A stretch of 47,495 nucleotides of DNA from positions 1 to 47,495 of IMG/VR virus record IMGVR_UViG_3300017714_002601. One strand, 5' to 3'. The position numbers were made by a program, and so were the translations under genes. Below, one piece after another: positions 3,521 through 29,383 of this stretch (the first letter of the stretch is position 1; each line of letters begins with the position of its first letter). The notes beneath the pieces were generated by a model. That model was not told the origin of the DNA. It saw only the letters and a program-made list of their open reading frames with translations, and ran no database searches. Source of the stretch: a virus.

Positions 3521-3900
3521 AATCTTTCTATATACTTTTTTAATTCTTTATCTTGCACATCATCTGGTATTTCATTCTTATAAAATATCTTATAACTATC
3601 ACTTCCATATTTTCCAATGCCGTGTAAATCACTTGCTTCTACTCCATCCCAAATGAGAAACTGTTCACTCATCTTACGCAATCGTTTTGCTCTCACTGAC
3701 CACATACCCAATGGCTTTAGCATATTTTGTTGTGTCTTTAGATGTCCACGCAGATATGCTTTTGGATTAGGATATCTCTTGAATAGCTTTGGTAATACTT
3801 CTTTAACTTGTTTTCTATATGTGAGATTTAAACACATAACGCCAACCATATGTTGCCATTTACTTTTGACCTGTTGTTGTACCATTAGATGTTCTTTCAT
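3517..3900 (-). CDS. HhH-GPD DNA glycosylase, MBD4-like
   Basis: 127 aa. The whole protein matches the MBD4-type glycosylase domain, which removes T or U from mismatched base pairs. WQHMVGVMCLNLTYRK matches the first helices, LKPLGMWSVRAKRL the next, and LHGIGKYGSDSYKIF (residues 92-106) is the helix-hairpin-helix. The catalytic Asp of the family lies shortly after it; D117 in VQDKELKKY is the candidate. The protein lacks the 4Fe-4S cluster cysteines of EndoIII, as MBD4 does. It sits in a repair and recombination operon with 4-nt overlaps on both sides. It would act on phage or host DNA in the cytoplasm to start base excision repair. The substrate (T:G, U:G or a damaged base) cannot be read. 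Confidence 0.85.
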   Translation of the reverse strand: MKEHLMVQQQVKSKWQHMVGVMCLNLTYRKQVKEVLPKLFKRYPNPKAYLRGHLKTQQNMLKPLGMWSVRAKRLRKMSEQFLIWDGVEASDLHGIGKYGSDSYKIFYKNEIPDDVQDKELKKYIERL

Positions 3901-4373
3901 TTTAATAACTTAATTTCTTTATCTTCTAGTCCGGCATCACGAGCCAATTGTTTAATATCATTTTTATCTAATATGTTTGATAGTAAAGCTATTTCATCAC
4001 TTTTGTAAGTTGGGTATAGTGATTGTAGAAATTCTACTTTTTTAGTTTTTTTACTTTTATTACCTTTTGGTGCTTTGATCCAAGGATGAAACATTTTTTT
4101 ACCTACACCACATAAACAAAGCAACTTCCAGAACATTAAACTATCTGTTTCGTGCTTCTGTAATACTGAAAAGTCTTTATTACAAAATTCATTGACGTTT
4201 TGAATATATGTTTCTTGTAATATTTTACTAGCTTTTATACTACTAGCGAAACGCATAGCTACGTATGGTGAAAACGTTTTTTTAATTTCACTGTCTAAAT
4301 TCTCGTACCAGTCCTTTGCACCAATGTCTATACTATATAACATTTGATTTAGATTAATACTTGGTTTCGTCAT
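3897..4373 (-). CDS. gp62: Clamp-loader small subunit, gp62-like
   Basis: 158 aa, ATG at 4373 overlapping the previous TAA (TAATG). It is helical, with an N-terminal KDWYENLDSEIKKTFSPYVAMRF block, a central LMFWKLLCLCGVGKKMFHPWIK block with a Lys-rich stretch, and a C-terminal DIKQLARDAGLEDKEIKLLK helix. This layout fits the divergent gp62 subunit of marine T4-like phages, which with gp44 loads the gp45 sliding clamp. The partner gp44 gene is not in this window, so the assignment rests on sequence layout and operon context. Confidence 0.6.
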   Translation of the reverse strand: MTKPSINLNQMLYSIDIGAKDWYENLDSEIKKTFSPYVAMRFASSIKASKILQETYIQNVNEFCNKDFSVLQKHETDSLMFWKLLCLCGVGKKMFHPWIKAPKGNKSKKTKKVEFLQSLYPTYKSDEIALLSNILDKNDIKQLARDAGLEDKEIKLLK

Positions 4374-4873
4374 TATAGTAAATTTCCTGCATCAAATTGA
4401 TCTGGTATTTGATTTGTATCTTTTGCAAAAAACACACAAGGTGAATTTGGCTTATCACTTAATGGCACAGCAATTATATGTCCGTGTTTTAGTTTTGGAA
4501 AATACCATTTAACTTCCTGGAACACGTTTATAATTTTTACTTCTTTGGATTGTATCATCTTATGAGTAAGTGGATTAATTGTTAAAACTTCAAAACCCCT
4601 GTCATTTAAACTTGTCAATGGAACCATTTCACATATTCCTAATTCTCGTTCAACAATCAAGACGCTCCAATCAACTGGCATTTGAACTGTATTCTTTCCT
4701 ACTTCCATTATCATACTTGGAGCATTGAATGTTTCCATAAAAATCAATGGAACAAAAAAGAAATCTATGTTCTTTGGATTATTAGTATCAAGCACACAAT
4801 ATTGTACTTCATCTGCTGTTTCTGGAACTTTGTCTAAATTGTATGATGTATTTTCTGTTGTTAATATTTTCAT
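4373..4873 (-). CDS. Conserved hypothetical protein of the uvsW operon
   Basis: 166 aa from the ATG at 4873, which overlaps the uvsW stop (TAATG). The reading frame is open for 30 more codons upstream, but those lie inside uvsW and lack the coupling. The protein appears beta-rich and single-domain, with blocks FFFVPLIFMETFNAPSMIME, VEVKWYFPKLKHGHIIAV-like segments and a C-terminal CVFFAKDTNQIPDQF. No catalytic motif was recognised. Neighbours suggest a part in replication or its regulation; the function is unknown. Confidence 0.65.
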   Translation of the reverse strand: MKILTTENTSYNLDKVPETADEVQYCVLDTNNPKNIDFFFVPLIFMETFNAPSMIMEVGKNTVQMPVDWSVLIVERELGICEMVPLTSLNDRGFEVLTINPLTHKMIQSKEVKIINVFQEVKWYFPKLKHGHIIAVPLSDKPNSPCVFFAKDTNQIPDQFDAGNLL

Positions 4874-6324
4874 TATATTCCTACCTTGCTTACAGTATAC
4901 GGGTATTTGGCGTCTTTGTAAAACTTTTTTCTTGCCGTTAAGTGTCTTTTTGAGTATTTGCAACTAGACGTTATATCCCAAATTTGTACATAATCTTTAT
5001 CTTCTGCTTTTCTAATTCCTCTTCCAATACTTTGAATAACCCTTACAAAACTCTTTCCAGGTTCCACTAATACCAAATTAAATATCCTTGGTAAATTAAT
5101 ACCTACTGCCGCTACTCCATATGTTGCAATAATAACTTTATATTTTTCTGTAGCCACTTCTGAATATTCTTCTTCTCTATCTTCTAGTTTAGTTTTACCC
5201 TGTATAAAAACTGATCCAGGTATTTCTTCTTTTAGTGCTTCGCCAGTTTTGATTCTATCAACCAGTATTAATGTGTTACCACCTGCTCTAATTTCTTCAA
5301 CCAATTTAGCCATAAAAACCATTCTTGGTTTGAAACTTGTAAGATACGTAAGCTCTTCTGGATAAGATCTAAAAGTTTGAAAGTCTTGGGTTTGTATGAT
5401 GTTAACGTGACATTGTGCTAGTACTCCTTTTTCTTGTAGTTCACTTGCTGACAACTGTCCTATCACTTTGCCCAGTGATGCTATCAAGCTTACTTTTTCA
5501 TAATCTTCTTTTGGTATCGTTCCAGTTAGTCCCCATCTCATTGGTACGTGTGCAAATGGTCCTGTTAATAATGTTTTTAGTACATCTGCTTTTGCCATAT
5601 GTACTTCATCTACCATTATGCATACTACATCTTTTATAAACTCTTCTATAGGAAAAGGTGCTTCTTGTTTTTTACTTTTTTTATGTAAAATATTTAAACT
5701 TTGCCAAGTACAAATTGTGTGCTGATGACCAAGCTCTTTCCTATCACCAAAATATACACCAACATCTAGGCCACAAGTAATATAATCTTGTTCTGTTTGT
5801 CCTACTAAACTTTTATTAGGTACTATAACAATAGTTCTACCATACTTTTCACACATCTTAGATAAGGCCGCTGTGATAATTGTTTTACCTGCACCTGTGG
5901 CTATTTCTTGTAAACTTTGTGGATTGCTGATAAACTCATTGATAACTTTTACTTGATAATCTCTCAATACAATTGGCGTTCCTGCGGCCGGATGGTTCTT
6001 TGGCCAATTAATATCAGATAGATAACCTTCATCAATTGATTCAAATTTTAAATCATAATCTTTCCTATCATCTTTAATCTCAATAGTATAATCTTGATCT
6101 TCAATAATAGGTAGTATTTTATCAATCAAATTTAAATATGTTCTTCCACCAATGTCACAAAAACGTATGTTTCCATCCCATCTACCTAATTTGTAAGCAG
6201 GTAAATGATATGCGTATGGTACGAAGTACTTTAATTTGTCAGAAATTTTCCTACGTGTAGACACATCCAAGTTTTCAAACTTGACATTTACTTCGTCCTT
6301 AATGTGTAGTAGTGTTTTATTCAT
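4873..6324 (-). CDS. uvsW: UvsW RNA-DNA and DNA helicase
   Basis: 483 aa, close to the T4 enzyme. It is a superfamily 2 helicase: Walker A ATGAGKT (residues 142-148), Walker B DEVH, motif III GLTGTI and motif VI QSIGRGIRKA are all visible, preceded by a small N-terminal domain (about residues 1-110). UvsW unwinds R-loops and branched DNA, shifts replication from origin-dependent to recombination-dependent initiation, and drives branch migration. It lies 20 nt after uvsY and is coupled to the next gene by a TAATG overlap, so recombination genes form one transcript. Confidence 0.95.
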   Translation of the reverse strand: MNKTLLHIKDEVNVKFENLDVSTRRKISDKLKYFVPYAYHLPAYKLGRWDGNIRFCDIGGRTYLNLIDKILPIIEDQDYTIEIKDDRKDYDLKFESIDEGYLSDINWPKNHPAAGTPIVLRDYQVKVINEFISNPQSLQEIATGAGKTIITAALSKMCEKYGRTIVIVPNKSLVGQTEQDYITCGLDVGVYFGDRKELGHQHTICTWQSLNILHKKSKKQEAPFPIEEFIKDVVCIMVDEVHMAKADVLKTLLTGPFAHVPMRWGLTGTIPKEDYEKVSLIASLGKVIGQLSASELQEKGVLAQCHVNIIQTQDFQTFRSYPEELTYLTSFKPRMVFMAKLVEEIRAGGNTLILVDRIKTGEALKEEIPGSVFIQGKTKLEDREEEYSEVATEKYKVIIATYGVAAVGINLPRIFNLVLVEPGKSFVRVIQSIGRGIRKAEDKDYVQIWDITSSCKYSKRHLTARKKFYKDAKYPYTVSKVGI

Positions 6325-6344
6325 TTCTTATTATACAACTAAGA

Positions 6345-6818
6345 CTATTTTTTTGCAAATAATTCTGCATCATCTAGCCCAGCTACCCTTAATTTTACGA
6401 TGTTATTAATCTGGAATTGTTTGGCATCAATGGCTTTAAGCAAACCTAAGAATTTATTTCTTAACAAGGCAAATTCATTAACTAAATTAGCCATATCAAC
6501 GACATCATCTTCTCCGTCAATATAGTTCCTTACATCATTTGATGTTAAAGCTCTTTGATAATTTTCTAAAAACTTTTTATAATGTTTACTTCTGATTTTT
6601 CTTAGTTGTATATTAAGAAATTCAAGTATTGCTTCAATCTCTTGTAATTGATTAAATCTATGTTCAACTATACCTGGTACTTTAGAAGCATTCTTTTCAA
6701 TGTTTCCGGTTAACCCGCATTCAATTCTTGCTTCATCAAGTTGGTATTCAAAGTGTTCTATACAATCAGGTATCTTACCAAGGTTAGATGTTACCTGTCC
6801 GTACCATTTAGCTGACAT
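6345..6818 (-). CDS. uvsY: UvsY recombination mediator
   Basis: 157 aa, ATG at 6818 overlapping the stop of the acidic gene (TAATG). It is basic and helical: KWYGQVTSNLGKIPDCIEHF at the N-terminus, RKIRSKHYKKFLENYQRAL in the middle, and a C-terminal LLKAIDAKQFQINNIVKLR that matches the UvsY core helix. UvsY helps UvsX displace gp32 from single-stranded DNA. Its location between uvsX and uvsW supports this. It is slightly longer than T4 UvsY (137 aa). Confidence 0.8.
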   Translation of the reverse strand: MSAKWYGQVTSNLGKIPDCIEHFEYQLDEARIECGLTGNIEKNASKVPGIVEHRFNQLQEIEAILEFLNIQLRKIRSKHYKKFLENYQRALTSNDVRNYIDGEDDVVDMANLVNEFALLRNKFLGLLKAIDAKQFQINNIVKLRVAGLDDAELFAKK

Positions 6819-7087
6819 TAATAGTCCTCTTCATTGTACGCAGAACCTTCATTATCATCATCATTATCGTCATACTCTTCTAATTCTTCGTAATGGTCTG
6901 ATATTGCTGTTTCTAAATAGTCGTCACTCCCTTTGAACTCTTCTAGATCTTGTTCTTCGATGCCGTACTCATCTAATAATGTTACGTAGGCTTTCGCGGC
7001 TTCCAATCTATCTTTTTGAGGAATGTATTCTACCACTTTGTTCCAAGCTTCAAGTAGCATCGCTATCTCCGAGTGATTCATCATCAT
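6818..7087 (-). CDS. Acidic small protein between uvsX and uvsY
   Basis: Up to 89 aa. The start is uncertain: ATG triplets at 7087, 7084 and 7081 all follow an AGGAG, and another at 7060 has its own GGAG; all but the last part of the leader lie inside the end of uvsX. The N-terminal half is helical (LLEAWNKVVEYIPQKDRLEAAKAY), while the C-terminal half is extremely acidic (YEELEEYDDNDDDNEG). Such tails often mimic DNA or bind single-stranded DNA-binding proteins. A transcription co-activator like gp33 was considered, but no clear match was seen. Confidence 0.65.
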   Translation of the reverse strand: MMMNHSEIAMLLEAWNKVVEYIPQKDRLEAAKAYVTLLDEYGIEEQDLEEFKGSDDYLETAISDHYEELEEYDDNDDDNEGSAYNEEDY

Positions 7088-8153
7088 TTGCTCCTATGGT
7101 TTCTAGTTTGGTTTTATTTATGTTTACCGAACCTAAGCTTTCTTGGAACTCAGCCATAACTAAATCCAGGTGTTCACCAGTCCATTGTTTCCGGTAGTGC
7201 AAATGCTCTTTTCCGAATCTATCAACATATTTTAATCTATTACCTTGTTTGACAAGTAATTCTTTTTTCTCAAACAATTCAACCAACCCTGAATACGGAT
7301 CCATTCCTTTTTCATATGGAATTTTTACTTGTACTGCTTCGAAAGGTTTGTTAAATCTTGACTTCATTACTTTACAGGCCGATCGTATACCCATAACGTC
7401 TGTTATCTTATTGCCATCTTCATCTTCTTTAAGTTTTAGTTTTCTCATAGCAACTACTACAGAACTTGCATACATAAATCCTTGTCCGCCTGATACTTTA
7501 TCATCTGGGTCAAACATATCTTGTGATGCGTATGTGTGGTTTGTTGCTACTAATCCAATACCTTCACTACCAATTAAGTTTACAGTATTTCTAATAAGTG
7601 CTGTTAGTGATTTGGCTTTTCTACCTAAGTCACCTTTCATCTCACCTTTTTGGAATTGGTCTCTATCAGTTGGTGTCAATAGCATACCTAAACTATCAAT
7701 AATAAACAATATTTTAGGTTTGTCGTCTTTACCTTCATAGTCTTTTTTATAGTTTATAACGAAGTCACTAATAATTTTAGCAACATCATCTACCATTGAA
7801 CAATTGATTCTTAACATCTTTTCAGTTGATGTATCTACACCTAGTGCTTGTAACCAATCTTCGTGTAATGCATTTTCACTATCTATTGCTACACAGAATA
7901 TACCTTGATCTTGTGCATTCTTGATTAAGTTACCTGAAGCGATCAAACTCTTACCTGAACCTGATTCTCCAGCAAACATTGTAACTCTTCCTAGTGGTAC
8001 GCCTTTGTTAAAGTCACCACTGATCAAATAGTTTAATGTATAATTTCCTGTTGATATCCACGTGTCTGGATCTGATTCAAATCCTGTAGATATACCTTGT
8101 ATACTTTTTGTTAGCCCTGATCTAAATTTGCTAACGTCAAACGGTCTTACCAT
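7050..8153 (-). CDS. uvsX: UvsX RecA-like recombinase
   Basis: 367 aa. A Walker A motif GESGSGKS (residues 62-69), an ILFIIDSLGML Walker B segment, an ATNHTY segment and the L2-like region GGQGFMYASS identify the phage RecA homologue that forms filaments on single-stranded DNA and exchanges strands. The C-terminus is acidic (NDDESLGDSD), as in RecA proteins. A Shine-Dalgarno AGGAG lies before the ATG at 8153. It follows gp32 by 57 nt, with a strong hairpin between the two, and forms one recombination module with uvsY and uvsW. Confidence 0.95.
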   Translation of the reverse strand: MVRPFDVSKFRSGLTKSIQGISTGFESDPDTWISTGNYTLNYLISGDFNKGVPLGRVTMFAGESGSGKSLIASGNLIKNAQDQGIFCVAIDSENALHEDWLQALGVDTSTEKMLRINCSMVDDVAKIISDFVINYKKDYEGKDDKPKILFIIDSLGMLLTPTDRDQFQKGEMKGDLGRKAKSLTALIRNTVNLIGSEGIGLVATNHTYASQDMFDPDDKVSGGQGFMYASSVVVAMRKLKLKEDEDGNKITDVMGIRSACKVMKSRFNKPFEAVQVKIPYEKGMDPYSGLVELFEKKELLVKQGNRLKYVDRFGKEHLHYRKQWTGEHLDLVMAEFQESLGSVNINKTKLETIGANDDESLGDSDAT

Positions 8154-8170
8154 AATTTCTCCTATTCGTT

Positions 8171-8203
8171 AATATGGCTGTGGGTTACCCCACAGCACAT
8201 ATT
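8171..8203 (-). other. Intercistronic hairpin between gp32 and uvsX
   Basis: The arms GCTGTGGG (8177-8184) and CCCACAGC (8189-8196) pair perfectly around a 4-nt loop that reads GUAA on the minus strand, a GNRA tetraloop. AATATG and CATATT extend the stem with one bulged base. No U tract follows, so a terminator is unlikely. An mRNA-stabilising or processing element separating gp32 from uvsX expression fits better. Confidence 0.6.
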
Positions 8204-8210
8204 ATATAAA

Positions 8211-9275
8211 TTATTTGTTAGCTTGTCTACTTCTAATCATTGATAAAATATCATCTGCTGATACTTTACTTTGACTTGTTGTAGCTGTCGCTGGTGCTGG
8301 TGCTGTTGCTGTTGCTGTAGCAGGAGCTTCACTTACTGATGCTGTAACTGTTTCTGCAACTTTAACTTCAGCCTGCACAGGTGCTGGTTGTACTACTGCT
8401 TCTGTCTGTACAGGTGCTGGCTGTGTTGTTGCCGTTGCTTGTACAGGTGCACTTACTGGCACTGAAGTAGTTGTAGCTTTAGATCCTGTGTTTAATCCAG
8501 CTGGTTTATAATACTGTCCAAATCTTTCTGGATCATACAATTCACCATCAACTGATGCTTTGAACATCTCTTGAATTACATTTAGTTCTTCTTGAGATGG
8601 TTTCTTAGGCATATAGTCACTTAAATTATGTAAACCATATTGCGTTATTGCACCTTGTTCTGCTTCACTTAATGATCTTGCTTTGAATGACCAAGTGGAT
8701 GTTGAATAATCAGCATAGCCACCTTTTTGTGTTTTAGTCAATTTAAAGTCTCTACCATTTGTAGTGTCAGTTGGAAGATCTTCCATATCAGGATTCATTA
8801 ATGCTGATCTGATAATTTGATAAATTGATGGATTGATTACAAACCTACGAATAGGATTCTCTGGTGTAGTTTCTTCATCTAGTGTTGAGTTAACTACAAA
8901 ACCTTGGAAAATGTAACTTCTTTTTTTCCAATATTTTCTACCCATATCTTCTAGTGCAGGATCTTTAAACCAAGTTCTTACTTCTGCAAGTACCGGACAA
9001 GGTTCGTTGAACATTTCCATACAAGGTACTTGTACTAGAGTTGGCTTTGTATCTGCCGCTCCTTTAATACCTGGAAATGGTAATTTGATCATTGCTCTTT
9101 CTTGCCAAAAGAATGTGTTTGATGTATCGCCGTCAGGTAAGAACCTCATTGTTGAAGTTGTGCCTTCAGGTATATTCCAAAATGGGAAGATTGCGTTATC
9201 TGAAACTGATGCTCTGTTTGAGCTTTTATTTTCTTGTGCCGCCAGTTTCGCACGGATATCTGCTAATGATGCCAT
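8211..9275 (-). CDS. gp32: gp32 single-stranded DNA-binding protein
   Basis: 354 aa, with a strong Shine-Dalgarno AAAGGAGG before the ATG at 9275. The N-terminal region (LADIRAKLAAQE) matches the gp32 cooperativity domain, and the core has an OB-fold layout with FPFWNIPEGTTSTMRFLPDG, FFWQERAMIKLPF, KYWKKRSYIFQGFVV and FGQYYKP. Only two cysteines remain where T4 gp32 has a zinc site (PCMEMFNEPCP), so zinc binding is doubtful. The C-terminal 90 residues are a low-complexity Ala/Thr/Val/Pro repeat, unlike the acidic T4 tail, ending in a short charged helix (SADDILSMIRSRQ). It coats replication intermediates. Confidence 0.9.
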   Translation of the reverse strand: MASLADIRAKLAAQENKSSNRASVSDNAIFPFWNIPEGTTSTMRFLPDGDTSNTFFWQERAMIKLPFPGIKGAADTKPTLVQVPCMEMFNEPCPVLAEVRTWFKDPALEDMGRKYWKKRSYIFQGFVVNSTLDEETTPENPIRRFVINPSIYQIIRSALMNPDMEDLPTDTTNGRDFKLTKTQKGGYADYSTSTWSFKARSLSEAEQGAITQYGLHNLSDYMPKKPSQEELNVIQEMFKASVDGELYDPERFGQYYKPAGLNTGSKATTTSVPVSAPVQATATTQPAPVQTEAVVQPAPVQAEVKVAETVTASVSEAPATATATAPAPATATTSQSKVSADDILSMIRSRQANK

Positions 9276-9282
9276 ATAATTT

Positions 9283-9334
9283 GCCTCCTTTTATTAAGCC
9301 TATGTTTGCCTATATTAGCCTGTGTTGTTTTGCC
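9283..9334 (-). promoter_or_regulatory. gp32 leader with 10-nt periodic AGGC repeats
   Basis: On the minus strand, GGC triplets recur at 9298, 9308 and 9318 with exact 10-nt spacing, in a context like AGGCnnANAT, and the Shine-Dalgarno AAAGGAGGC follows at once. T4 gp32 represses its own translation by binding its leader, so a translational operator is a reasonable inference. Confidence 0.35.
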
Positions 9335-9367
9335 ATAATGTATAAAATGTTTAAACATTATATACAC

Positions 9368-9396
9368 ATTATATTTAGCTTTTATGATAAAGTCAA
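9368..9396 (-). promoter_or_regulatory. Sigma70-type promoter of gp32 operon
   Basis: TTGACT (9391-9396) and TATAAT (9368-9373) are separated by 17 nt on the minus strand. It predicts a leader of about 85 nt before gp32 and early transcription by unmodified host RNA polymerase. Confidence 0.75.
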
Positions 9397-9402
9397 GTGT
9401 TT

Positions 9403-10173
9403 TTATTCGGTAAATTGAATTATTTTATCATTGTATTTGTTATAGCTATTTTCTAATAATTGTAAGTGTTTTTCAGGATCTATTGGACCTGTTGCTGTCA
9501 CTACCCACTTTAATTCGTCTATTTTTTTAGCACCGTGTGGGTATACCAATTCATTGATCACAAATGCATTAGTGTCCATTGGTACATCAACATATAACAA
9601 TGGATTGTTCTCAGATGGTTTATGTTCTTTACAGAAATAAAAACTTGGTGTACGTACATCATTCAATAGCAATCTAAAACCTGATGGTTCATATGGAGAT
9701 AGTTTGCTTGAATCTAGATCTACCGCGGCGTCATTGTGTAATGGAACATCTTTCCTTTGCTGTACAAGTTCTGCGTGGTTGCATTCAATAGGCAGTTGTT
9801 CAATTAATTTTATTATACCTTGTAGCTCTTCTGGTAAATTTGGATTGTTTTTGACTTGTTGTGTGCGTTCTAGTCTATTCGACCAAGACGTTCTTACCTT
9901 TGCCGCATCAATCCAATCTTCAGTCTTTTCAAAACCTTGTCCACGCAAACAAACTATACGCCAAATCATATGAGGATGTTTTTCAACATACTCACCGTGT
10001 TTGTTTTTTTTATCACCATAAAGATTTGTGTGTACATCAGGTGGCCATATGTAGTTCCTGTCAGAGAACACTTGTAATCGTTCCAAGTCCATACTTTCAT
10101 ATGGAATGTCTAATGGCATAAATGCTATGTTCTGATATTTTTCAAACCTTTTATCACTATTGCGGTATGGCAT
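9403..10173 (-). CDS. Possible 2OG-Fe(II) oxygenase of the Asp-hydroxylase type
   Basis: 256 aa. A late promoter (10192-10199) and AAAGGAAA precede the ATG. The C-terminal half contains VPLHNDAAVD (an HxD pair near residue 145), then GFRLLLND, LYVDVPMDTNAFVINELVYPHGAKK with a distal His, and KWVVTATGPID. The order HxD, Arg, distal His fits the double-stranded beta-helix of aspartyl/asparaginyl hydroxylase-like 2OG-Fe(II) enzymes, a class often carried by marine myoviruses. The N-terminal 110 residues are unassigned. The substrate is unknown. The call is tentative because the iron and 2OG ligands were placed by eye. Confidence 0.45.
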   Translation of the reverse strand: MPYRNSDKRFEKYQNIAFMPLDIPYESMDLERLQVFSDRNYIWPPDVHTNLYGDKKNKHGEYVEKHPHMIWRIVCLRGQGFEKTEDWIDAAKVRTSWSNRLERTQQVKNNPNLPEELQGIIKLIEQLPIECNHAELVQQRKDVPLHNDAAVDLDSSKLSPYEPSGFRLLLNDVRTPSFYFCKEHKPSENNPLLYVDVPMDTNAFVINELVYPHGAKKIDELKWVVTATGPIDPEKHLQLLENSYNKYNDKIIQFTE

Positions 10174-10191
10174 TCTTATTTCCTTTTACTA

Positions 10192-10199
10192 TATTTATA
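10192..10199 (-). promoter_or_regulatory. T4-type late promoter TATAAATA
   Basis: An exact TATAAATA lies on the minus strand 18 nt before the ATG at 10173, directly after the btuB stop codon. An AAAGGAAA ribosome-binding site lies between it and the ATG. Confidence 0.7.
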
Positions 10200-12065
10200 T
10201 TAGTATTTAACTTTAAATGTTAGTAAAAAATTTCTACCATCTTGTGCGTATCCATCTGGTCTTTCATAATTCACATCAGTGAGATTGTTTACAGAAAGTA
10301 TCAAGTCTGAACTTTCATTTAGTTCATATTTTGAATGAAAGTTAATTATATCAACTGCTGGCTTTTCAACAGTGGCATAAGTTTGAGAATCTATGTCTAA
10401 ATGTTTTCCAGTATACATCCACTCTAGGGTATTTGTAACTTTATCTTTTTTATAATCAACTGCTGTGAACCAATCCCATTTTGGTCTTCTTGTAACTTGG
10501 TTATTATCACTGTCTTGTGCAATAGTAAATGTTGTGCCTGACCTTACAAAAAAGTTTTCATCTACATAAGTGTTCATTATTAATTCAGCACCGTGCCTGT
10601 TTGAAGTTCCTGTTGCATTCGAATATGTACTATTGCCATACGTGATCATATTGTCCAAGTCTGTGGTAAAGTAAACAAGATCCATATCTGCTTTGTCATT
10701 AATTTGATATGTAAAGCCTATGTCCATTGTTGTTGACTCTTCTGGCTGTAAGTTAGCATTACCATTGTAACCATAGTTGTCTGCCCCGTACAGTTCGTAT
10801 AACGTAGGTGTTTTCACTGCTGTTGAGTAATTACTCTTTAATGTTAAATCATTTGTTAGTTCATATGTAGTACCTAATCTGTAAGTGCTATAATTATTGA
10901 ACATACTTGAATCGTCATTCCTAACACCTGCGGATAAAAGAAGTTTATCATTTACTAGATAGTTTCCGTTAATAAATGTTCCTGTGTTATCTCCTTCTTT
11001 GTCTACAGATGATGTATATGAACCTCTGTTGTTGAATGTACCATCGTATTGTTCATATTCAACACCTGGTGTTATGTCAAACTTATCAAACAAAAAAGTG
11101 TTTGTAAAAAGATAAGTGTTTGTGTTTGAATCATACTCATCAATTTCCGTGCCATTTACATACTCTCTGTCATATTCACTTCTAGAAAAAGTAAAGTTAC
11201 TAAAACCTAATGCATTTTTTATTTTCGTATATACTTGGTATACACTCATTTTATTATTTGCTGTATAATCCGTGTCATCTACTGTTGTGTCTAGATCTGA
11301 ATCGTTATTTCTTTTAATGATCGTAGTTCCAATATCGAAGTTTTCAAATTTACTGTTTGTGTTTACTGTGATGTTTTGAGTATCATAGCCATCTTTTTCA
11401 GCACCCTTTGGGTACACTGATATACCATCTGATTTTGTACCATCTAAAATTACACTAACTGAATGGTTATCAATGTCTTCGTGTATCTTTAATGTTATAC
11501 CTTTTGTATTATTGGATCCTATTGTTGTTGATATAGAATTTTCGTAACTTCCTGTTGTTATGAAATTAATAACTCCACCAACTGCGTTTGGACCAAATAG
11601 TGTTCCTTGTGATCCTTTTACTACTTGTATTCCTGTTATGTGTTTAATGAAATCCTGTCCTAGGTCGTGTAAGCCACCTGTTGTTGAATTGTCTTTGATC
11701 GGTATTCCATTTACAGCAACCATTGTGTGATTAGAATTTGTTCCTCTCATAAAGATTGACGTTTGTTGACCTGTTGATCCAGATTGTACTATTGTTACAC
11801 CCGTTATTCTTTGTATTGCTTGTACTGTGTCAACACTATTTGTATTTTCAATTGTGTACTTGTCTACATAATCAACACTCATTGATTTTGTTGTAAGTTT
11901 GCTAGGATCTCTCAAGAGATAGACAGTAATATTAACTACTAATGATCCATCTTCTTCATAGAAAGATTCTGATTTAAATTCTTTTGTTTCTGTGGCGTGA
12001 ACTTTATTTACGATTGCCCACCAACAAAATAAAACTAATATTGATAATATGATTTTTTTAACCAC
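10200..12065 (-). CDS. btuB: BtuB-like TonB-dependent outer-membrane receptor
   Basis: 621 aa, GTG start at 12065 preceded by AAAGGAG, overlapping the DUF6580-like gene by 31 nt. A signal peptide is clear (hydrophobic LSILVLFCWWAIV, likely cut after VHA at residue 24). The plug domain follows: SVDTVQAIQRITGVTIVQSG, IFMRGTNSNHTMVAVNGIPI, then VVKGSQGTLFGPNAVGGVIN, all hallmark TonB-receptor segments. The rest is a beta-barrel of alternating residues with a TELYGADNYGYNGNANLQPE loop and a C-terminal aromatic strand (LLTFKVKY). The substrate is inferred to be cobalamin because a cobalamin riboswitch heads the operon. TonB, ExbB and ExbD would come from the host. The protein is somewhat long compared with E. 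coli BtuB (about 594 aa mature). Confidence 0.9.
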   Translation of the reverse strand: MVKKIILSILVLFCWWAIVNKVHATETKEFKSESFYEEDGSLVVNITVYLLRDPSKLTTKSMSVDYVDKYTIENTNSVDTVQAIQRITGVTIVQSGSTGQQTSIFMRGTNSNHTMVAVNGIPIKDNSTTGGLHDLGQDFIKHITGIQVVKGSQGTLFGPNAVGGVINFITTGSYENSISTTIGSNNTKGITLKIHEDIDNHSVSVILDGTKSDGISVYPKGAEKDGYDTQNITVNTNSKFENFDIGTTIIKRNNDSDLDTTVDDTDYTANNKMSVYQVYTKIKNALGFSNFTFSRSEYDREYVNGTEIDEYDSNTNTYLFTNTFLFDKFDITPGVEYEQYDGTFNNRGSYTSSVDKEGDNTGTFINGNYLVNDKLLLSAGVRNDDSSMFNNYSTYRLGTTYELTNDLTLKSNYSTAVKTPTLYELYGADNYGYNGNANLQPEESTTMDIGFTYQINDKADMDLVYFTTDLDNMITYGNSTYSNATGTSNRHGAELIMNTYVDENFFVRSGTTFTIAQDSDNNQVTRRPKWDWFTAVDYKKDKVTNTLEWMYTGKHLDIDSQTYATVEKPAVDIINFHSKYELNESSDLILSVNNLTDVNYERPDGYAQDGRNFLLTFKVKY

Positions 12066-12544
12066 GAGTAACTCCTTTTAATTGTTTCATATATTATCTT
12101 AATCAACACAATATAAAATATCGTGCCTATTAATGTATTTTGAAAGAAAGGTATCGCCATCGTGTAACATAAGATTAAACCGTCTAGTGTTTTTGGATAT
12201 AGTGTGCTTGTTAACCATACACCAAAATTTGTTGTTGTAAAGAATATAACAGGTGCAAGTATAGACATTGTTATCAAGTTTAGATATCTACTCACAATTG
12301 TGCATAACATTATAGTTCCATAGATCCAAATCATAAATGAATGTAAACCCAAATAGAGATCCGAGACAAACATTGCCGTTATTGGAACCAACATTGCCAA
12401 GTATATGTCACGAGTCATATATGGCATAAAAATAGCCATAGCCAGTACTGGTGTGAAGTTTGGCGGATGTGGGATTATTCTACTCAGAGCTAGTACCCCA
12501 GAATAGTATAAAAACAATATCAATGTTAACTTTGTTTTATTCAT
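12035..12544 (-). CDS. DUF6580-like membrane protein, putative cobalamin transport component
   Basis: 169 aa, ATG at 12544 right after the riboswitch expression platform. It is strongly hydrophobic with about five or six membrane segments. The N-terminal SRIIPHPPNFTPVLAMAIF, the central VSDLYLGLHSF and the later FGVWLTSTLYPKTLDGLILC with IPFFQNTLIGTIFY fit the DUF6580 family of putative transporters as I know it, which resemble S components of ECF vitamin transporters. It would sit in the inner membrane and pass cobalamin onward from the receptor encoded next. Substrate specificity is inferred from the riboswitch and gene pairing. Confidence 0.75.
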   Translation of the reverse strand: MNKTKLTLILFLYYSGVLALSRIIPHPPNFTPVLAMAIFMPYMTRDIYLAMLVPITAMFVSDLYLGLHSFMIWIYGTIMLCTIVSRYLNLITMSILAPVIFFTTTNFGVWLTSTLYPKTLDGLILCYTMAIPFFQNTLIGTIFYIVLIKIIYETIKRSYSWLKKSYYQY

Positions 12545-12545
12545 A

Positions 12546-12728
12546 TTAACAGTTTCCTTATAGCACGTTGCCGTACCTCGCCACTGTTAATTTTACATTG
12601 TAGAACTAGACTTTCCCAGGCCTTCATTCGACAGCGGACTTGTAGTGGTTGGCACTCCGACTTTACGGTTCCTGGTAGAGCCAGCGAATTTCACACTGAT
12701 TCCCCAACACGGTTCACTACTAATTCTA
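12546..12728 (-). promoter_or_regulatory. Cobalamin riboswitch with RBS-sequestering hairpin
   Basis: Read on the minus strand, the conserved blocks occur in the expected order: GGGGAATCAGTGTGAAATTC (12686-12706), AACCGTAAAGTCGGAGTGCC within 12644-12670, and GAATGAAGGCCTGGGAAAG (12611-12629). A closing helix is possible between 12720-12728 and 12601-12609. Downstream, TTAACAGT (12583-12590) pairs with ACTGTTAA (12546-12553), which abuts the Shine-Dalgarno AAGGA (12555-12559) of the DUF6580-like gene; a GUACG-GCAA-CGUGC hairpin lies in the loop. This looks like translational control: bound cobalamin would shut off uptake genes. Confidence 0.88.
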
Positions 12729-12730
12729 TT

Positions 12731-12758
12731 ATTATACCTGATTTTGCTCTATTGTCAA
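12731..12758 (-). promoter_or_regulatory. Consensus sigma70 promoter of the B12 operon
   Basis: TTGACA (12753-12758) and TATAAT (12731-12736) are both perfect consensus hexamers, separated by 16 nt on the minus strand. The predicted start near 12724 lies at the 5' edge of the riboswitch. It begins right after the stop codon of the 63-aa gene. Confidence 0.85.
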
Positions 12759-12761
12759 GTA

Positions 12762-12953
12762 CTATTTTTTAAATGGATTTAAGTTTTTAATTGCACCAGT
12801 AACTTTTTTCGTTGTTCCTGATACTGCGCCTTTGGCTTTACCAGTTGCTCCTGATACTGCGCCTTTAACTTTATCTGTTGCTTTGCCTACTTTTTCGCCT
12901 ATGTTTAATTTTGGCATTGAAAATTTTGGCATTTTAATCTTTGGTAGTTTCAT
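12762..12953 (-). CDS. Small basic repeat protein with amphipathic 11/12-residue periodicity
   Basis: 63 aa, preceded by AAAAGGAG. The N-terminus has a Lys/Pro/Met repeat (KLPKIKMPKFSMPKL); the rest repeats KVKGAVSGATG, KAKGAVSGTTK and KVTGAIKNLNP. Lys-rich Ala/Val/Gly repeats of about 11 residues are typical of synuclein-, LEA- or apolipoprotein-like amphipathic helices that bind membranes or nucleic acids. It follows the large structural gene by 15 nt and ends where the B12 promoter begins. A packaged DNA-binding protein, a membrane-active peptide or a substrate of a modifying enzyme are all possible. Confidence 0.65.
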   Translation of the reverse strand: MKLPKIKMPKFSMPKLNIGEKVGKATDKVKGAVSGATGKAKGAVSGTTKKVTGAIKNLNPFKK

Positions 12954-12968
12954 ATAACTCCTTTTGGA

Positions 12969-14987
12969 TTATTTGATACCTGCTAAATCTTTAATTCTAA
13001 GTATTACTTTATTTAGATCAGTTGGTGCTACCGATTCACCATCTTGTGGTGTTGGAGCATCCATACCTGATGTTGGTGTTTCTACTTCTTCCGAAGCTGA
13101 CCCATCTAGTTCATCAGCAATTCTGTTTAACCATTCTGCTTCTGAAGGATGTCTATCACCATCTGATACATCTGCGTAACCAATTGAATCTGCATCTGCT
13201 CTTAACATTTTAGCAATTTCTATATCAGACTTGCCAGCATACTCGCCTTGTTCATTTTCAATCTCTTGCATCACTGCATCTCTGTAATCATCATAGTCTT
13301 GCATTTCACCATATTTTTCAGCGTCTGCATCTGCTTGAGTGAAATCTTCTTTTGCCGCTTTTTTCATTGGTTCGGTTTTATTGCCATCTTTATCTAAATC
13401 TAAAAAATCTGGTTTTGGTGCTTCTTCAACTGATTCGTCAGCCCAAGAAAGTTTATCTGCTTTTTTAAGATCTCTGTATTCTTTACCAAACGTTACGTGT
13501 TGATTACCTTTGATACCAGCTACTCCTCTTTCAATGCCTTTTTCTTTTTTAAGAAAATCATTGTAGCTCATTGGCTTTTTATTTGGCATAGCATCTTTGC
13601 CCGTGTAAGACATAACAGTTTTGTAATCTCCCGGCTCTTCGTTAACAATCTGATCTGGATTAAACACACCTAAAATTCTGTTGAAGCTTTCTTGTAAATC
13701 TGCTACTTCTTTCACTTCAGTAACCTCAGTTGATTCTGCGTTTGCAACTGCTTGTGGTTTATCTTTTTTGACTTTATCTAAAATTGCTCTAACAGTTGTG
13801 ATGTCATCTTTCGACATTGGTTGGTCATCTGCTCCAGTTAATTTATCGTGCATTCTTGATAAGAAAACTGAAATTTCATCATCTTTAACTAATTGAGCTA
13901 ACTCACCAATTCTGTGTCTAACAGCATCTGCTGTAGTTCTGTATTTTACAATGTCACTACCATAAGCTTTCTGATTGTCTGATGGTGCGTGAGTTTCAAC
14001 TGGTTCATTTAATTTAGCTTGTACTCTTTTTCTTAAAGAGTCAGTGTCATTAATTTCTTCATCGTGTATTTCTTGTATCATTGGTAACAAGTCTGTAATT
14101 TTGTTTTCAATATTAGTTACAGTAAATTTTTCTTTCATTGAATCTAAAGTACCTTGATCGTATTCTTTTGCTTCAGCTTTTGCATAGCTTTCAACATATG
14201 ATTCATAACCAACACCAGTCATTAACTTCTTGATAGTTTCTCTTAATCTATCTTGGTTGTAATTTAATGATGTTACCACTGAAGATGCTTGTTCTTGTAT
14301 AGCTGGAGAACGTCTAATTATGTTTAGTACTTCTCTAATCTTGCTTAATCTTTCACTAATATTTGTAATACTTTGTCCTACTTCATCAAACGGATTTCCT
14401 CCCGCTTGTACGTGTCTAGTCATTGCTCTAGCACCGTTTAAGTGTATGAATGGATATTTAAATCTTTCACCTTCAGCATTTTCAATATATAATGCTTTGA
14501 TGTTTCTTGATCTAGATCCGGGAATTTCTTCGTTAACTGCTTTTCTGTGCTTGATTAATAGTTTCGCACCTTCTAATTTTTGATTAGAAGTTTTCACAGT
14601 TCCAGCCATTTGGCTATAACTTTCTGTTTTAATATTTTCATCTGACATAGTATTGTTATTTAACCTAAATGCATAATTTTTAGGCTTAATTTCCCTTCCG
14701 AATTCACGTAAATCAAAGTCTAATAAGTTGTCTTTAGCCAAGTTTTTAACTGATTGTACGGTTTTTTCAATATTTTCAATGTTTTCAGGTCCTTTATGCA
14801 TCTTAACTTCTTCATTTTCTGGCGACAAGTTAACCATTAAGTTAGGTTGATTCACATAAAAAAACCTAGCGTCTTCTGGATTTGAGATTTCATTACCATC
14901 AGTGTCGTCAAACATCTGAACGTGATACCCGTGACCTTTAAGTACCCTAAAAATCTTTTCTGCAACTGTGCTATAATTTACTGCCAT
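12969..14987 (-). CDS. Large conserved virion-associated protein
   Basis: 672 aa, helical and charged. It starts MAVNYSTVAEKIFRVLKGHG and is preceded by a late promoter whose element ends 5 nt before the ATG. Segments include RRSPAIQEQASSVVTSLNYN, a conserved VMSYTGKDAMPNKKPMSYND block and FLDLDKDGNKTEPMKKAAKE, which resembles a calcium-binding DxDxN/DGxxE loop. The C-terminal part (from about residue 430) is low-complexity and acidic. I recall similar genes next to gp17 in marine T4-like phages, usually annotated as structural. A role inside the head or in packaging is inference. Confidence 0.65.
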   Translation of the reverse strand: MAVNYSTVAEKIFRVLKGHGYHVQMFDDTDGNEISNPEDARFFYVNQPNLMVNLSPENEEVKMHKGPENIENIEKTVQSVKNLAKDNLLDFDLREFGREIKPKNYAFRLNNNTMSDENIKTESYSQMAGTVKTSNQKLEGAKLLIKHRKAVNEEIPGSRSRNIKALYIENAEGERFKYPFIHLNGARAMTRHVQAGGNPFDEVGQSITNISERLSKIREVLNIIRRSPAIQEQASSVVTSLNYNQDRLRETIKKLMTGVGYESYVESYAKAEAKEYDQGTLDSMKEKFTVTNIENKITDLLPMIQEIHDEEINDTDSLRKRVQAKLNEPVETHAPSDNQKAYGSDIVKYRTTADAVRHRIGELAQLVKDDEISVFLSRMHDKLTGADDQPMSKDDITTVRAILDKVKKDKPQAVANAESTEVTEVKEVADLQESFNRILGVFNPDQIVNEEPGDYKTVMSYTGKDAMPNKKPMSYNDFLKKEKGIERGVAGIKGNQHVTFGKEYRDLKKADKLSWADESVEEAPKPDFLDLDKDGNKTEPMKKAAKEDFTQADADAEKYGEMQDYDDYRDAVMQEIENEQGEYAGKSDIEIAKMLRADADSIGYADVSDGDRHPSEAEWLNRIADELDGSASEEVETPTSGMDAPTPQDGESVAPTDLNKVILRIKDLAGIK

Positions 14988-16912: not shown

Positions 16913-18085
16913 TTACTCTTTAACTTTAGTCTCGTCTTTTGCTACATTATCAAGTGCGTCTGGCTTGAATTCAGAAATGATCGAATCGTCTCTGATATTA
17001 CATAAAGCTTCCCATTTGTTATTTGTACATTTACGATGGCATAGGTGCATTGGTTGTTTACCGTAAGCATTTTTTGATTTTACTGTCCAGGCAGTAGTCA
17101 TTTCTTCCCAAGCTGAATGTCCAAAAATTTCTTTCATCGAATACTTGTGATAATCATTAAAACCTTTTTCATAATGAGGCCATATCAATGGATCCATATG
17201 TCTGAAGTCATTAAATTTATCCCAGACAGAAGTCCAACAACAAGGCCATATTCTGCCTTTGGCATTTAGATACATCCGTTGTTGTTTGATATACTTACAG
17301 GAAATTTTAGGAACGTCAGTGTCATATCTTACTTGTTGTAATCGTTTTTCAACTTGCTGTTTTACATCTGACCCTAACTGTATTTCACCCGTTGTCATTT
17401 GCTTAAATTTTTCCATTGGTACACCTTCTGGAGTACCATATAAAGATTTACTTGGGTATGGCGTTTTATTATATGCAGTATTGTCATAACGTGTCGCCCA
17501 TATGGGTTCAAATGTAACGAAGCCCATTTTTTTAGCAAGTTCTCTTGCTTCCTCAACCTGATGTTCATTGTGTTTGAATATCAACCATTTCCAGGTTGCC
17601 ATTCCTCCAGCTCCAAGGTATGCTTCAACGTTTGCCATTAATGCGTCCCATTTTACTTTTTTTCTATATATTTCATTAGTATCTTCTAGTCCGTCTATTG
17701 AAAAAAACATCATAGCATTTTGATTTCGTTTACTAATCTCACCCATATTTTTCCAAAAGTCAATTTTCCTTGCACCACCGTTAGTTTCCAATTCTGTATA
17801 TCTAAAATTCTTTGCAGTAAACTCCCAGATGTCTTCCATATGTGGGTGCATTAATGCATCGCCTAGATTTCCCACATACCATACATCCATTTTTTTAGTT
17901 TGTTCTCCAAAATCATCTTTGAGTTTGTAAATCAATTCAGGCTTGATGTGATCCATTTGCATATCTGGTTCTAATATGCTCGTGTTTGGTAAATGCCTCG
18001 AACAATGGGGACATCCTGCGTTACAATAAGTTGTAGGTTCAACTTCTATTTTTCTTACTTTATCTAGAGTTAATATGTTAAACAT
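16913..18085 (-). CDS. Radical-SAM enzyme with SPASM-like C-terminus
   Basis: 390 aa. The CNAGCPHC motif (C21, C25, C28) binds the 4Fe-4S cluster that cleaves S-adenosylmethionine. VGNLGDALMHP, TELETNGGA and FFSIDGLEDTNEIYR match the GGE-like, strand 4 and strand 5 regions of the radical-SAM barrel. The C-terminal part has CKYIKQQRMYLNAKGRIWPCCW and a later HLCHRKC...C, fitting SPASM auxiliary clusters, which typify peptide or protein modifiers. It starts 44 nt after a second radical-SAM gene and has its own late element. The substrate is unknown: a phage or host protein or peptide is the family-based inference. Confidence 0.85.
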   Translation of the reverse strand: MFNILTLDKVRKIEVEPTTYCNAGCPHCSRHLPNTSILEPDMQMDHIKPELIYKLKDDFGEQTKKMDVWYVGNLGDALMHPHMEDIWEFTAKNFRYTELETNGGARKIDFWKNMGEISKRNQNAMMFFSIDGLEDTNEIYRKKVKWDALMANVEAYLGAGGMATWKWLIFKHNEHQVEEARELAKKMGFVTFEPIWATRYDNTAYNKTPYPSKSLYGTPEGVPMEKFKQMTTGEIQLGSDVKQQVEKRLQQVRYDTDVPKISCKYIKQQRMYLNAKGRIWPCCWTSVWDKFNDFRHMDPLIWPHYEKGFNDYHKYSMKEIFGHSAWEEMTTAWTVKSKNAYGKQPMHLCHRKCTNNKWEALCNIRDDSIISEFKPDALDNVAKDETKVKE

Positions 18086-18129: not shown

Positions 18130-19449
18130 TTAGCTTATATGGTTTATAAAAGTAGTAAATGTATTAGTAAAATTTTTATTACGTCTACGGTCGATTTCTT
18201 TTACAAACTTCAGCAAGTCTTTTTTATTGTTATCTATTTGTTCTTTGGTTAAGTTACTTTGTGTGTAGTAGTTTTTTAGTCTAATAATATAGTTCAATTC
18301 ATTGATGTCAGTAAATTTGTTTTCACTTACAAAAGCAAGTACCTTATTAAATTTTGCGTTCCAATACTCTGTTTTTGGTAAGTTACGCACATCCAAGAAT
18401 GGTGGATTGTTTAACAGCGATACTCCGTATGTCAGTTTGTATTTTTCTTTTAACGTGTATAGGTCTTGCAGGAATACATAAAAACGATCAATGCACAATT
18501 GATTAGCAGTGACCATCACGTGTATTGGTATGTCATTCTGTAATACGTATTCACAGTTGTCTAGCCATTCGTTGTATATCAAACCTTCACGTATGTATTC
18601 TGCTTGTTCACCGTGCGTGTCGCAACTGGTGTGTATGAGTACATCTTTGACTTTGTTTTCTTTCACTAGTACTTTTAACTGTATGACAAAATCCTTTAAC
18701 AACTTATTTGATATTGCCAAGTTAGAGTTAATTTCTAATTTTAAATTCGGTGCAGGGTTCTGTTGAATATCATTTAACAATTTTTGTGTGTTATGATTCA
18801 ACAAAGGTTCTCCACCTGTTATTCTCAACACTTTAAGTTCACTTCTTATAGTGGGCCACCATTTCCACCAAGCTTCCACATAAGGATTCGTTTCTCTGTT
18901 TAGATACGGGGTCCTGTCTGTTTCTGCTATCCATTCTAGATTGTTGTAACTGTCTTGTGTGGGATAAGGTCCGTGATTTTTTATCTCGCTCCACCAATCA
19001 CTGCTGAACACAGGACCACAGTACAGACATTTCATATTGCACACATTACCAAAGCTGACTTCAATCTGTTTTGGTATGACGTCATAGTTGTGATCATTGT
19101 TTTTAACTTCATCAAAGTATGGTGCCGCCCAGGTGTTGTTTGCTGACTTTTTAATCCTGTCACTATAATGTTCGCCGGCCGAGTCTTCTACTGCCCAACA
19201 GTAGTGGCACTCACTGGGACGTTTGCCTTCTAGCATCAACCTACGTTGTTCTTTTTTGAACTTCGTGTTGTGTAGTGCTGACGGATTTTCTTTTATTTCT
19301 TCTAAAGGTATCTTGTGTGTTTGTGGGTGGTGACAGCTATGCGTGTGTCCGTTTTGTAAGTGTATCGTTACCTGTTGCCATTTGGCCAAACATAGTGTTG
19401 GTGAAACTGAATTTAGACGTTCCTGTGTTTTCTTAAATTTGTCTGACAT
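18130..19449 (-). CDS. Radical-SAM enzyme with N-terminal twitch-like domain
   Basis: 439 aa. The radical-SAM motif is CNMKCLYC (C137, C141, C144), followed by LRITGGEPLLN (the GGE motif) and LEINSNLAI. Before the barrel lies a region with four cysteines (C20, C39 and the pair C81/C84 in ECHYCW) that fits a twitch domain carrying a second iron-sulfur cluster, with the arrangement WQQVTIHLQNGHTHSCHHP. Twitch radical-SAM proteins of this layout occur in marine phages, without a defined substrate. It shares its transcript direction with the SPASM-type gene, suggesting sequential action on one substrate (inference). Confidence 0.85.
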   Translation of the reverse strand: MSDKFKKTQERLNSVSPTLCLAKWQQVTIHLQNGHTHSCHHPQTHKIPLEEIKENPSALHNTKFKKEQRRLMLEGKRPSECHYCWAVEDSAGEHYSDRIKKSANNTWAAPYFDEVKNNDHNYDVIPKQIEVSFGNVCNMKCLYCGPVFSSDWWSEIKNHGPYPTQDSYNNLEWIAETDRTPYLNRETNPYVEAWWKWWPTIRSELKVLRITGGEPLLNHNTQKLLNDIQQNPAPNLKLEINSNLAISNKLLKDFVIQLKVLVKENKVKDVLIHTSCDTHGEQAEYIREGLIYNEWLDNCEYVLQNDIPIHVMVTANQLCIDRFYVFLQDLYTLKEKYKLTYGVSLLNNPPFLDVRNLPKTEYWNAKFNKVLAFVSENKFTDINELNYIIRLKNYYTQSNLTKEQIDNNKKDLLKFVKEIDRRRNKNFTNTFTTFINHIS

Positions 19450-28798: not shown

Positions 28799-29074
28799 AT
28801 GATGATATCTTGGAAAACAGACGGTTCTGCAGGCGCAGTTGATACAGTTAGAAATTGGTTAGAAGAAGGTTCAAACCACAGTGACTATATTACTTGGGCT
28901 GAAAGCAACGGTCGATTAAATTACAGCTGGGACATAGTCGGTGACGATATTGTTATCACTGAAGAGTGGAATATTGATAGAGCGGCTTACGATGCACTAG
29001 CAATTGACCATAAAGCTAACGGTGAAGACTTACCTGTAACAGAAACTAACGATCACTTGACTTTTAACGAATAA
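28799..29074 (+). CDS. Small acidic protein, first of a tandem paralogue pair
   Basis: 91 aa, preceded by AAAGGAGC and a late promoter. It begins MMISWKTDGSAGA and contains WAESNGRLNY and DDIVITEEWNIDRAAYDALAI. The protein is acidic with no signal peptide or membrane segment. The gene right after it encodes a close relative (same start, same VITEEWNIDR core), so the two arose by tandem duplication. I do not recognise the family. A late, abundant structural or decoration protein would fit the promoter and ribosome-binding site. Confidence 0.7.
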   Translation: MMISWKTDGSAGAVDTVRNWLEEGSNHSDYITWAESNGRLNYSWDIVGDDIVITEEWNIDRAAYDALAIDHKANGEDLPVTETNDHLTFNE

Positions 29075-29092: not shown

Positions 29093-29383
29093 ATGATGAT
29101 ATCTTGGAAAACTGATGGATCAGCAGGAGCTAGTGATTTAATATCAGGCAGGGTTAATGCTGGTACAAGTTCACAGTATTACGAAGACAAATACGGTATG
29201 ACGTATGCCGAATGGGCCGCTGATAATGGTAGAGTCAATTTCAAAGCAGAAATGGTTGCCGATGATTTTGTTATCACCGAAGAGTGGAACATCGACAGAG
29301 AAGAATATGATGCATTAGACATTGAACCAGTCTCATCAGCAGAATTACCTATGGTAGAAACTACCGAGCACTTGTCGTTTTAA
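29093..29383 (+). CDS. Small acidic protein, second of a tandem paralogue pair
   Basis: 96 aa, 18 nt after its paralogue and preceded by TAGGAAAA. It shares MMISWKTDGSAGA, WAADNGRVNF and VITEEWNIDREEYDAL with the first copy and differs by a short insertion (SQYYEDKYGMTYAEW) and a divergent middle. I estimate roughly 45 percent identity by eye. The strong conservation of both ends with a variable centre suggests the two keep the same fold with different binding surfaces. Function unknown. It ends the plus-strand island, converging on the dNMP kinase gene. Confidence 0.7.
   Translation: MMISWKTDGSAGASDLISGRVNAGTSSQYYEDKYGMTYAEWAADNGRVNFKAEMVADDFVITEEWNIDREEYDALDIEPVSSAELPMVETTEHLSF

Follow-up and report, generated by a model that had tools for sequence, protein, structure and literature searches.

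A predicted vitamin B12 uptake operon under a SAR11-type cobalamin riboswitch in a large-genome marine myovirus

Introduction

Why would a phage carry genes for taking up vitamin B12, together with an RNA that could sense it? The question is raised by IMG/VR virus record IMGVR_UViG_3300017714_002601, a 47.5-kb stretch of DNA (47,495 nt) that was analysed over its full length and is called the window here. On its minus strand, from 12758 to 10200, lie in order a promoter, a riboswitch, a 61-nt RNA domain, a gene for a DUF6580 membrane protein and one for a TonB-dependent receptor (Table 1). Metabolite-sensing or candidate RNAs have precedents in T4-like marine phages: the glutamine riboswitch of Melnitz and Mosig (PMC9004378) and the manA/wcaG motifs of cyanophages (PMC2864571). 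The window switch differs from these in being of a cobalamin class and in having uptake genes as its target, and a riboswitch scan of pelagimyophages found none (PMC7029224). B12-linked genes are also familiar in marine phages, as cobS and cobT auxiliary genes (PMC9599517, PMC9301287), but those belong to biosynthesis, whereas the window operon would serve sensing and uptake, and a search for CobS in the contigs tested gave no match. In a literature search that covered few subscription journals, neither a phage cobalamin riboswitch nor a phage operon for B12 uptake was found to be reported.

It is probable, in our estimate, that the window represents a large-genome marine myovirus with a B12-uptake operon under its own cobalamin riboswitch, working much as proposed below. 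The operon is best read as a regulated B12-import module common to phage and SAR11 (Pelagibacterales), which suggests that the phage tunes the B12 supply of its host during infection. If so, vitamin supply would be a regulated target of infection in SAR11-type marine bacteria, some of the most abundant of the surface ocean; the DUF6580 family would acquire a testable function; and AdoCbl-II riboswitches would gain a conserved regulatory domain left out of the Rfam model.

Operon layout and genomic context

The operon is embedded among genes of T4-superfamily myoviruses: by comparison with PHROGs, its surroundings include terminase, sheath, tubes, portal, head protein, head protease, UvsX, a gp32-like SSB and a helicase. 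The window terminase is closest (~55% identical) to its counterpart in PA5oct-type jumbo phages of 285 kb. Among relatives with the B12 operon, a 242-kb sister contig is nearest; it has the same operon and a receptor 88% identical. The original prediction, of a T4-like phage, thus holds at the level of the superfamily and needs narrowing to its large-genome members. It also described a consensus sigma70 promoter and two overlapping genes. The promoter is indeed perfect, and L013, L014 and L016 retain it at the corresponding site, as TTGAC(A/T) and TATA(A/C)T; the two ORFs overlap by 31 nt.

Table 1. Features of the operon, with positions in the window and the evidence for each.
Feature	Position	Strand	Evidence
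Sigma70-type promoter, TTGACA-16-TATAAT	12731..12758	-	consensus bases 12/12
AdoCbl-II cobalamin riboswitch aptamer	12642..12720	-	RF01689, 84 bits, E 8.4e-20
Conserved 61-nt 3' domain	12580..12640	-	model R1, 89.6 bits
Extended P13 hairpin, with L13 at 12618-12615	12633-12599	-	pairing counts
Competing helix, CCGCUGU:ACAGUGG	12637-12631 : 12587-12581	-	pairing counts
Putative start-codon sequestor, AUUAACAGU (12591-12583) with ACUGUUAAU (12553-12545)	12545..12591	-	minimum-free-energy fold, duplex energy
DUF6580 membrane protein, 169 aa	12035..12544	-	PF20221, 137 bits, E 8e-40
BtuB-like TonB-dependent receptor, 621 aa, GTG start	10200..12065	-	Pfam Plug + barrel, TIGR01779, PDB BtuB, tree

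Immediately upstream of the promoter is a 63-aa lysine-rich ORF (12762-12953, minus strand) with repeats like KVKGAVSGATGKAKGAVSG; its counterpart in contig L020 has 100 aa and more repeats. Next to this is a phage head gene (12969-14987), absent from the 197 SAR11 genomes searched, a result that is uninformative as to host. Two adjoining radical SAM proteins are encoded in the structural region (16913-18085 and 18130-19449, minus strand), the first with a weak SPASM match. On the plus strand, the phage has a gene for ribosomal protein L11 (28251-28733), with both Pfam L11 domains (E 4e-30 and 6e-27), and two adjoining small ORFs (28799-29074 and 29093-29383) with near-identical starts (MMISWKTDGSAGA), apparently a tandem duplication and without a Pfam match.

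The leader RNA

A cmscan search over the whole window gave a single gathering-level match (cut-off 36.5 bits), to RF01689 at full length (model positions 1-81). It falls in the 5' leader of the DUF6580 and receptor genes and ends 98 nt before the former, so the cobalamin riboswitch proposed there was recovered by Infernal with a score far above the cut-off. The L5 loop of the aptamer reads ACCA (12676-12673). The ligand is presumably a cobalamin. A marine relative of the AdoCbl-II class prefers methyl- or aquocobalamin over adenosylcobalamin.

The 61 nt that follow are strongly conserved, and are common to phages and SAR11. They are covered by no Rfam family: matches there were at chance level only, and a known RNA family was rejected as an identity for the domain. 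The R1 score in Table 1 is from a model built on sequences that include the window. In an 18-sequence alignment the whole fold is 95.6% paired, with 15 doubly changed pairs, compared to at most 44% paired in a slid control. In 43 sequences, at least three of the four positions of loops L5 and L13 are complementary, with three main covarying types (UCCU/AGGA, NCCA/UGGN and UCUC/GAGA), which argues for selection on a kissing loop between them; none of 5000 permutations did as well, a count made optimistic by the relatedness of the sequences. Across 40 sequences the extended P13 hairpin reaches 97.9% pairing, with changes that are mostly one-sided, and the competing helix is 94% paired, with weak covariation; in the 40-row alignment (A6), one row (L153) is two bases short from trimming, with no material effect on the counts. 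The free-energy z-score for the whole leader (-0.5) is unremarkable, and covariation is the informative test.

The tail of the domain could also pair with the start site of DUF6580, where ACUGUUAAU directly precedes the AUG at 12544. Such pairing is locus-specific in the SAR11 relatives, to which this comparison applies since the phage start regions are too alike: the value for a tail with its own start region is -8.45 kcal/mol, versus -7.05 for permuted combinations, with 0 of 2000 permutations as good.

These elements suggest how the switch might work. Host RNA polymerase would transcribe the operon from the consensus promoter. At low cobalamin, the tail of the 61-nt domain would pair within that domain, as the competing helix, leaving the start codon free; DUF6580 would be made and, by way of the overlapping frames, extra BtuB-type outer-membrane receptor as well. 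When cobalamin is plentiful, the bound aptamer would hold L13 by its L5 loop, the extended P13 hairpin would take the UGU that the competing helix requires, and the released tail would cover the start codon. Ligand should favor the hidden start: with P13 held by the kissing loop, that same UGU would be occupied. The switch would thus spare expression when cobalamin is present.

The OFF direction is probable by analogy with known btuB switches. The contrary, an ON switch, or one sensing another corrinoid, would tie expression to B12 being present rather than lacking. This fits the folds computed in silico, in which most elements, the window included, favor the sequestor even without ligand, so that ligand could open the start. 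Known btuB switches repress on ligand, however (literature cited in PMC2211319), and the kissing loop can coexist with P13 and the sequestor: when L13 was constrained to be unpaired, two SAR11 elements (L106 and L154) shifted to the sequestered state, in a calculation that covers folding outside of transcription. An ON switch or another ligand is therefore unlikely, if still the most serious of the alternatives considered here, and repression by cobalamin is the direction assumed below. The E. coli btuB switch has, to our knowledge, no such 3' domain.

The receptor

The second gene was predicted to encode a BtuB-like TonB receptor, and the domain searches agree. Plug (PF07715, E 3e-17) and beta-barrel (PF00593, E 6e-34) are both above their cut-offs; the best NCBIfam model is TIGR01779, the vitamin B12 receptor, followed by E. 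coli BtuB, with haem and siderophore models ranking lower; and in a PDB search E. coli BtuB is best (3e-26), followed by the colicin I receptor (3e-13). Because the TIGR01779 score of 218 bits is far below the equivalog cut-off of 599.7, the protein is filed as BtuB-like, not BtuB. By reading, its N-terminus appears to consist of a signal peptide followed by a TonB-box-like SLVVNITV.

In a tree of 55 receptors, 14 from phages and three from SAR11 (L047, L076 and L090, each behind an AdoCbl-II switch) form one clade with support 100, within which two phage receptors (L119 and L125) adjoin the SAR11 ones and the other twelve make up a clade of their own; deeper joins are unsafe owing to long branches elsewhere. 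In these comparisons the window receptor sides with BtuB and with the SAR11 receptors under riboswitch control, rather than with receptors for siderophores or sugars; its cargo is probably B12.

The arrangement resembles bacterial cobalamin-riboswitch btuB operons (E. coli btuB; OM43 btuB, PMC9004378; and SAR11, SAR116 and other loci) in having the switch before a BtuB-like TonB receptor. SAR11 loci share more, namely the AdoCbl-II aptamer, the 61-nt domain after it and DUF6580. The operon differs from the bacterial ones in belonging to a phage, and in that DUF6580 precedes and overlaps the receptor.

A phage might also encode a TonB-receptor variant in order to replace or mask the receptor used by competitors, in which case B12 control would be left over from the gene that was captured. 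TonB receptors often serve phages as receptors, and two phages have the switch and receptor without DUF6580. Like the window, the SAR11 phage Skadi has an annotated TonB-dependent receptor gene; it is discussed in relation to adsorption, with no riboswitch or B12 link mentioned in the accessible part of that paper (PMC10504331). Yet one phage (L020) has the switch before DUF6580 alone, without receptor, which makes a superinfection block less likely; other phages have DUF6580 by itself; and retention of a covarying switch and an inner-membrane gene would not be expected. We consider receptor replacement improbable, and B12 import the better account of the receptor.

The DUF6580 protein

The first gene, described in the original prediction as encoding a DUF6580-like membrane protein, matches PF20221 over residues 7-159 at a score well above the cut-off of 27 bits. 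Eighty bacterial loci were found via the DUF6580 motifs CYTMAIPF and [GS]R[LI]IPHPPN, conservation of which is thus partly due to selection of the loci. In 43 of these a TonB receptor is encoded within 4 kb, and 38 of the 43 also have a B12-box or AdoCbl-II motif nearby. All 12 loci checked with Rfam, picked for carrying the motif, have a gathering-level cobalamin riboswitch. The usual order in bacteria is switch-receptor-DUF6580, as opposed to switch-DUF6580-receptor in phages.

Built from 87 sequences, an AlphaFold2 model has high confidence (pLDDT 91.8). The top five Foldseek matches to it are described as S-components or vitamin transporters, including thiamin-type ThiT, at values not significant alone (TM at most 0.63, E at least 0.67). 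A single DUF6580 protein had no match in the PDB, and the family profile against the whole PDB had one, weak (E 0.23), to a 182-residue chain of 6FNP. This entry is ECF-CbrT, a vitamin B12 transporter, according to the paper on the structure, and the residue numbering A182C (PMC12075633) fits that chain being CbrT itself. Gene linkage, fold and CbrT match are each weak alone; all point to a B12 role, and DUF6580 is proposed to be an inner-membrane B12 transporter with an S-component-like fold, as modeled.

The known B12 S-components BtuM (PMC6072759) and CbrT (PMC5997447) are likewise small membrane proteins with the S-component fold, which in DUF6580 is predicted, and BtuM was itself predicted from a btuB neighbourhood (PMC6072759), as DUF6580 is here. 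Sequence similarity to them is not significant, the CbrT profile match included, and the essential cysteine of BtuM has as its candidate counterpart C126, kept in 82 of 87 sequences and replaced by Ala in five. No paper found in the literature search names DUF6580; its B12 role, and the 3' domain of SAR11-type AdoCbl-II switches, may be new.

Distribution in SAR11 and other phages

Among 197 SAR11-family genomes, model R1 finds the 3' domain in 42 and RF01689 is above cut-off in 41, with 40 having both; among the coordinates listed, the domain begins at the base following the aptamer. R1 found nothing in 640 other genomes (398 Pseudomonadota, 121 of the SAR116 order and 121 of the SAR86 order), under strict filters that lose weak matches. 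Within what was sampled, the domain is restricted to SAR11 and phages, and the RNA type and receptor were probably exchanged between the two.

An exact pattern for the domain occurs in 15 other viral contigs, several of them near-identical, so that independent phages are fewer. By context, 12 have the order switch-DUF6580-receptor (two of these, L122 and L124, end inside DUF6580), one has switch and DUF6580 only (L020/L118), and two have switch and receptor only (L119 and L125). The module adjoins the head-gene neighbour in the window lineage, whereas L117 and L122-L124 have it behind a helicase-like gene and in L125 a ThyX-like gene is close by. Its several positions in phage genomes imply more than one move. 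A ligand-sensing B12-uptake operon in a phage, as first proposed for this locus, is thus supported by its recurrence as well as by the riboswitch score and the BtuB-like receptor.

The presence of the same three elements in bacterial relatives could mean that the operon is passenger DNA, captured from a host and without function in infection. Against this, the order of elements in phages differs from the usual bacterial one, the module or parts of it occupy several genome positions, twelve phage receptors form their own clade, and the frames and RNA pairings are intact. Passenger status seems very improbable, and a functional import module is assumed in what follows.

Other phages have DUF6580, with or without the receptor, and no detected riboswitch; none was found in phages L019, L025 and L027 even at a relaxed threshold, and these lineages apparently do without a switch. 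At the same genome position in relatives of the window phage, L020 has switch plus DUF6580 and L019 has DUF6580 only, without detectable riboswitch; in these two, parts of the operon were lost or never gained. In L025, L027, L028, L029 and L033, DUF6580 and a BtuB-like receptor are encoded together (around 3600-10800) with no riboswitch detected, mostly adjoining a fatty acid desaturase; L027 also encodes a SufB-like protein. A desaturase gene under a cobalamin riboswitch has been noted in marine metagenomes (PMC2211319).

A broader claim would be that DUF6580 is a widespread, unrecognised family of inner-membrane B12 transporters with the S-component fold, and that large marine phages have it, along with a receptor for B12, under the control of a SAR11-type riboswitch with an undescribed 61-nt domain, so measuring and adjusting the vitamin in their hosts. 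This seems to us evenly poised between right and wrong.

Possible benefit to the phage

We infer both the benefit to the phage and the identity of its host. On the simplest reading, the imported B12 would go to B12-using enzymes of the host, above all methionine synthase, and so support them during infection. The original prediction had pointed instead to phage cobS-type genes and a B12-dependent class II ribonucleotide reductase. This link failed: the 242-kb sister contig, which may be incomplete, encodes class Ia NrdA and NrdB, and has no CobS match and no B12-binding domain, so that B12 import on behalf of a class II reductase or cobS is not supported in this lineage.

Near the receptor, two other phage groups encode a radical SAM protein that gives a weak match for B12 binding, so B12 use may differ among phages. 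One is the set with desaturase neighbours described above, in which four of five contigs have a radical SAM protein nearby, with the weak match in the two tested. The other is L119, in which the protein is encoded upstream of the riboswitch-receptor unit and DUF6580 is not beside it. In L125, also without DUF6580 beside the unit, ThyX-like and PstS-like genes (by reading) lie downstream.
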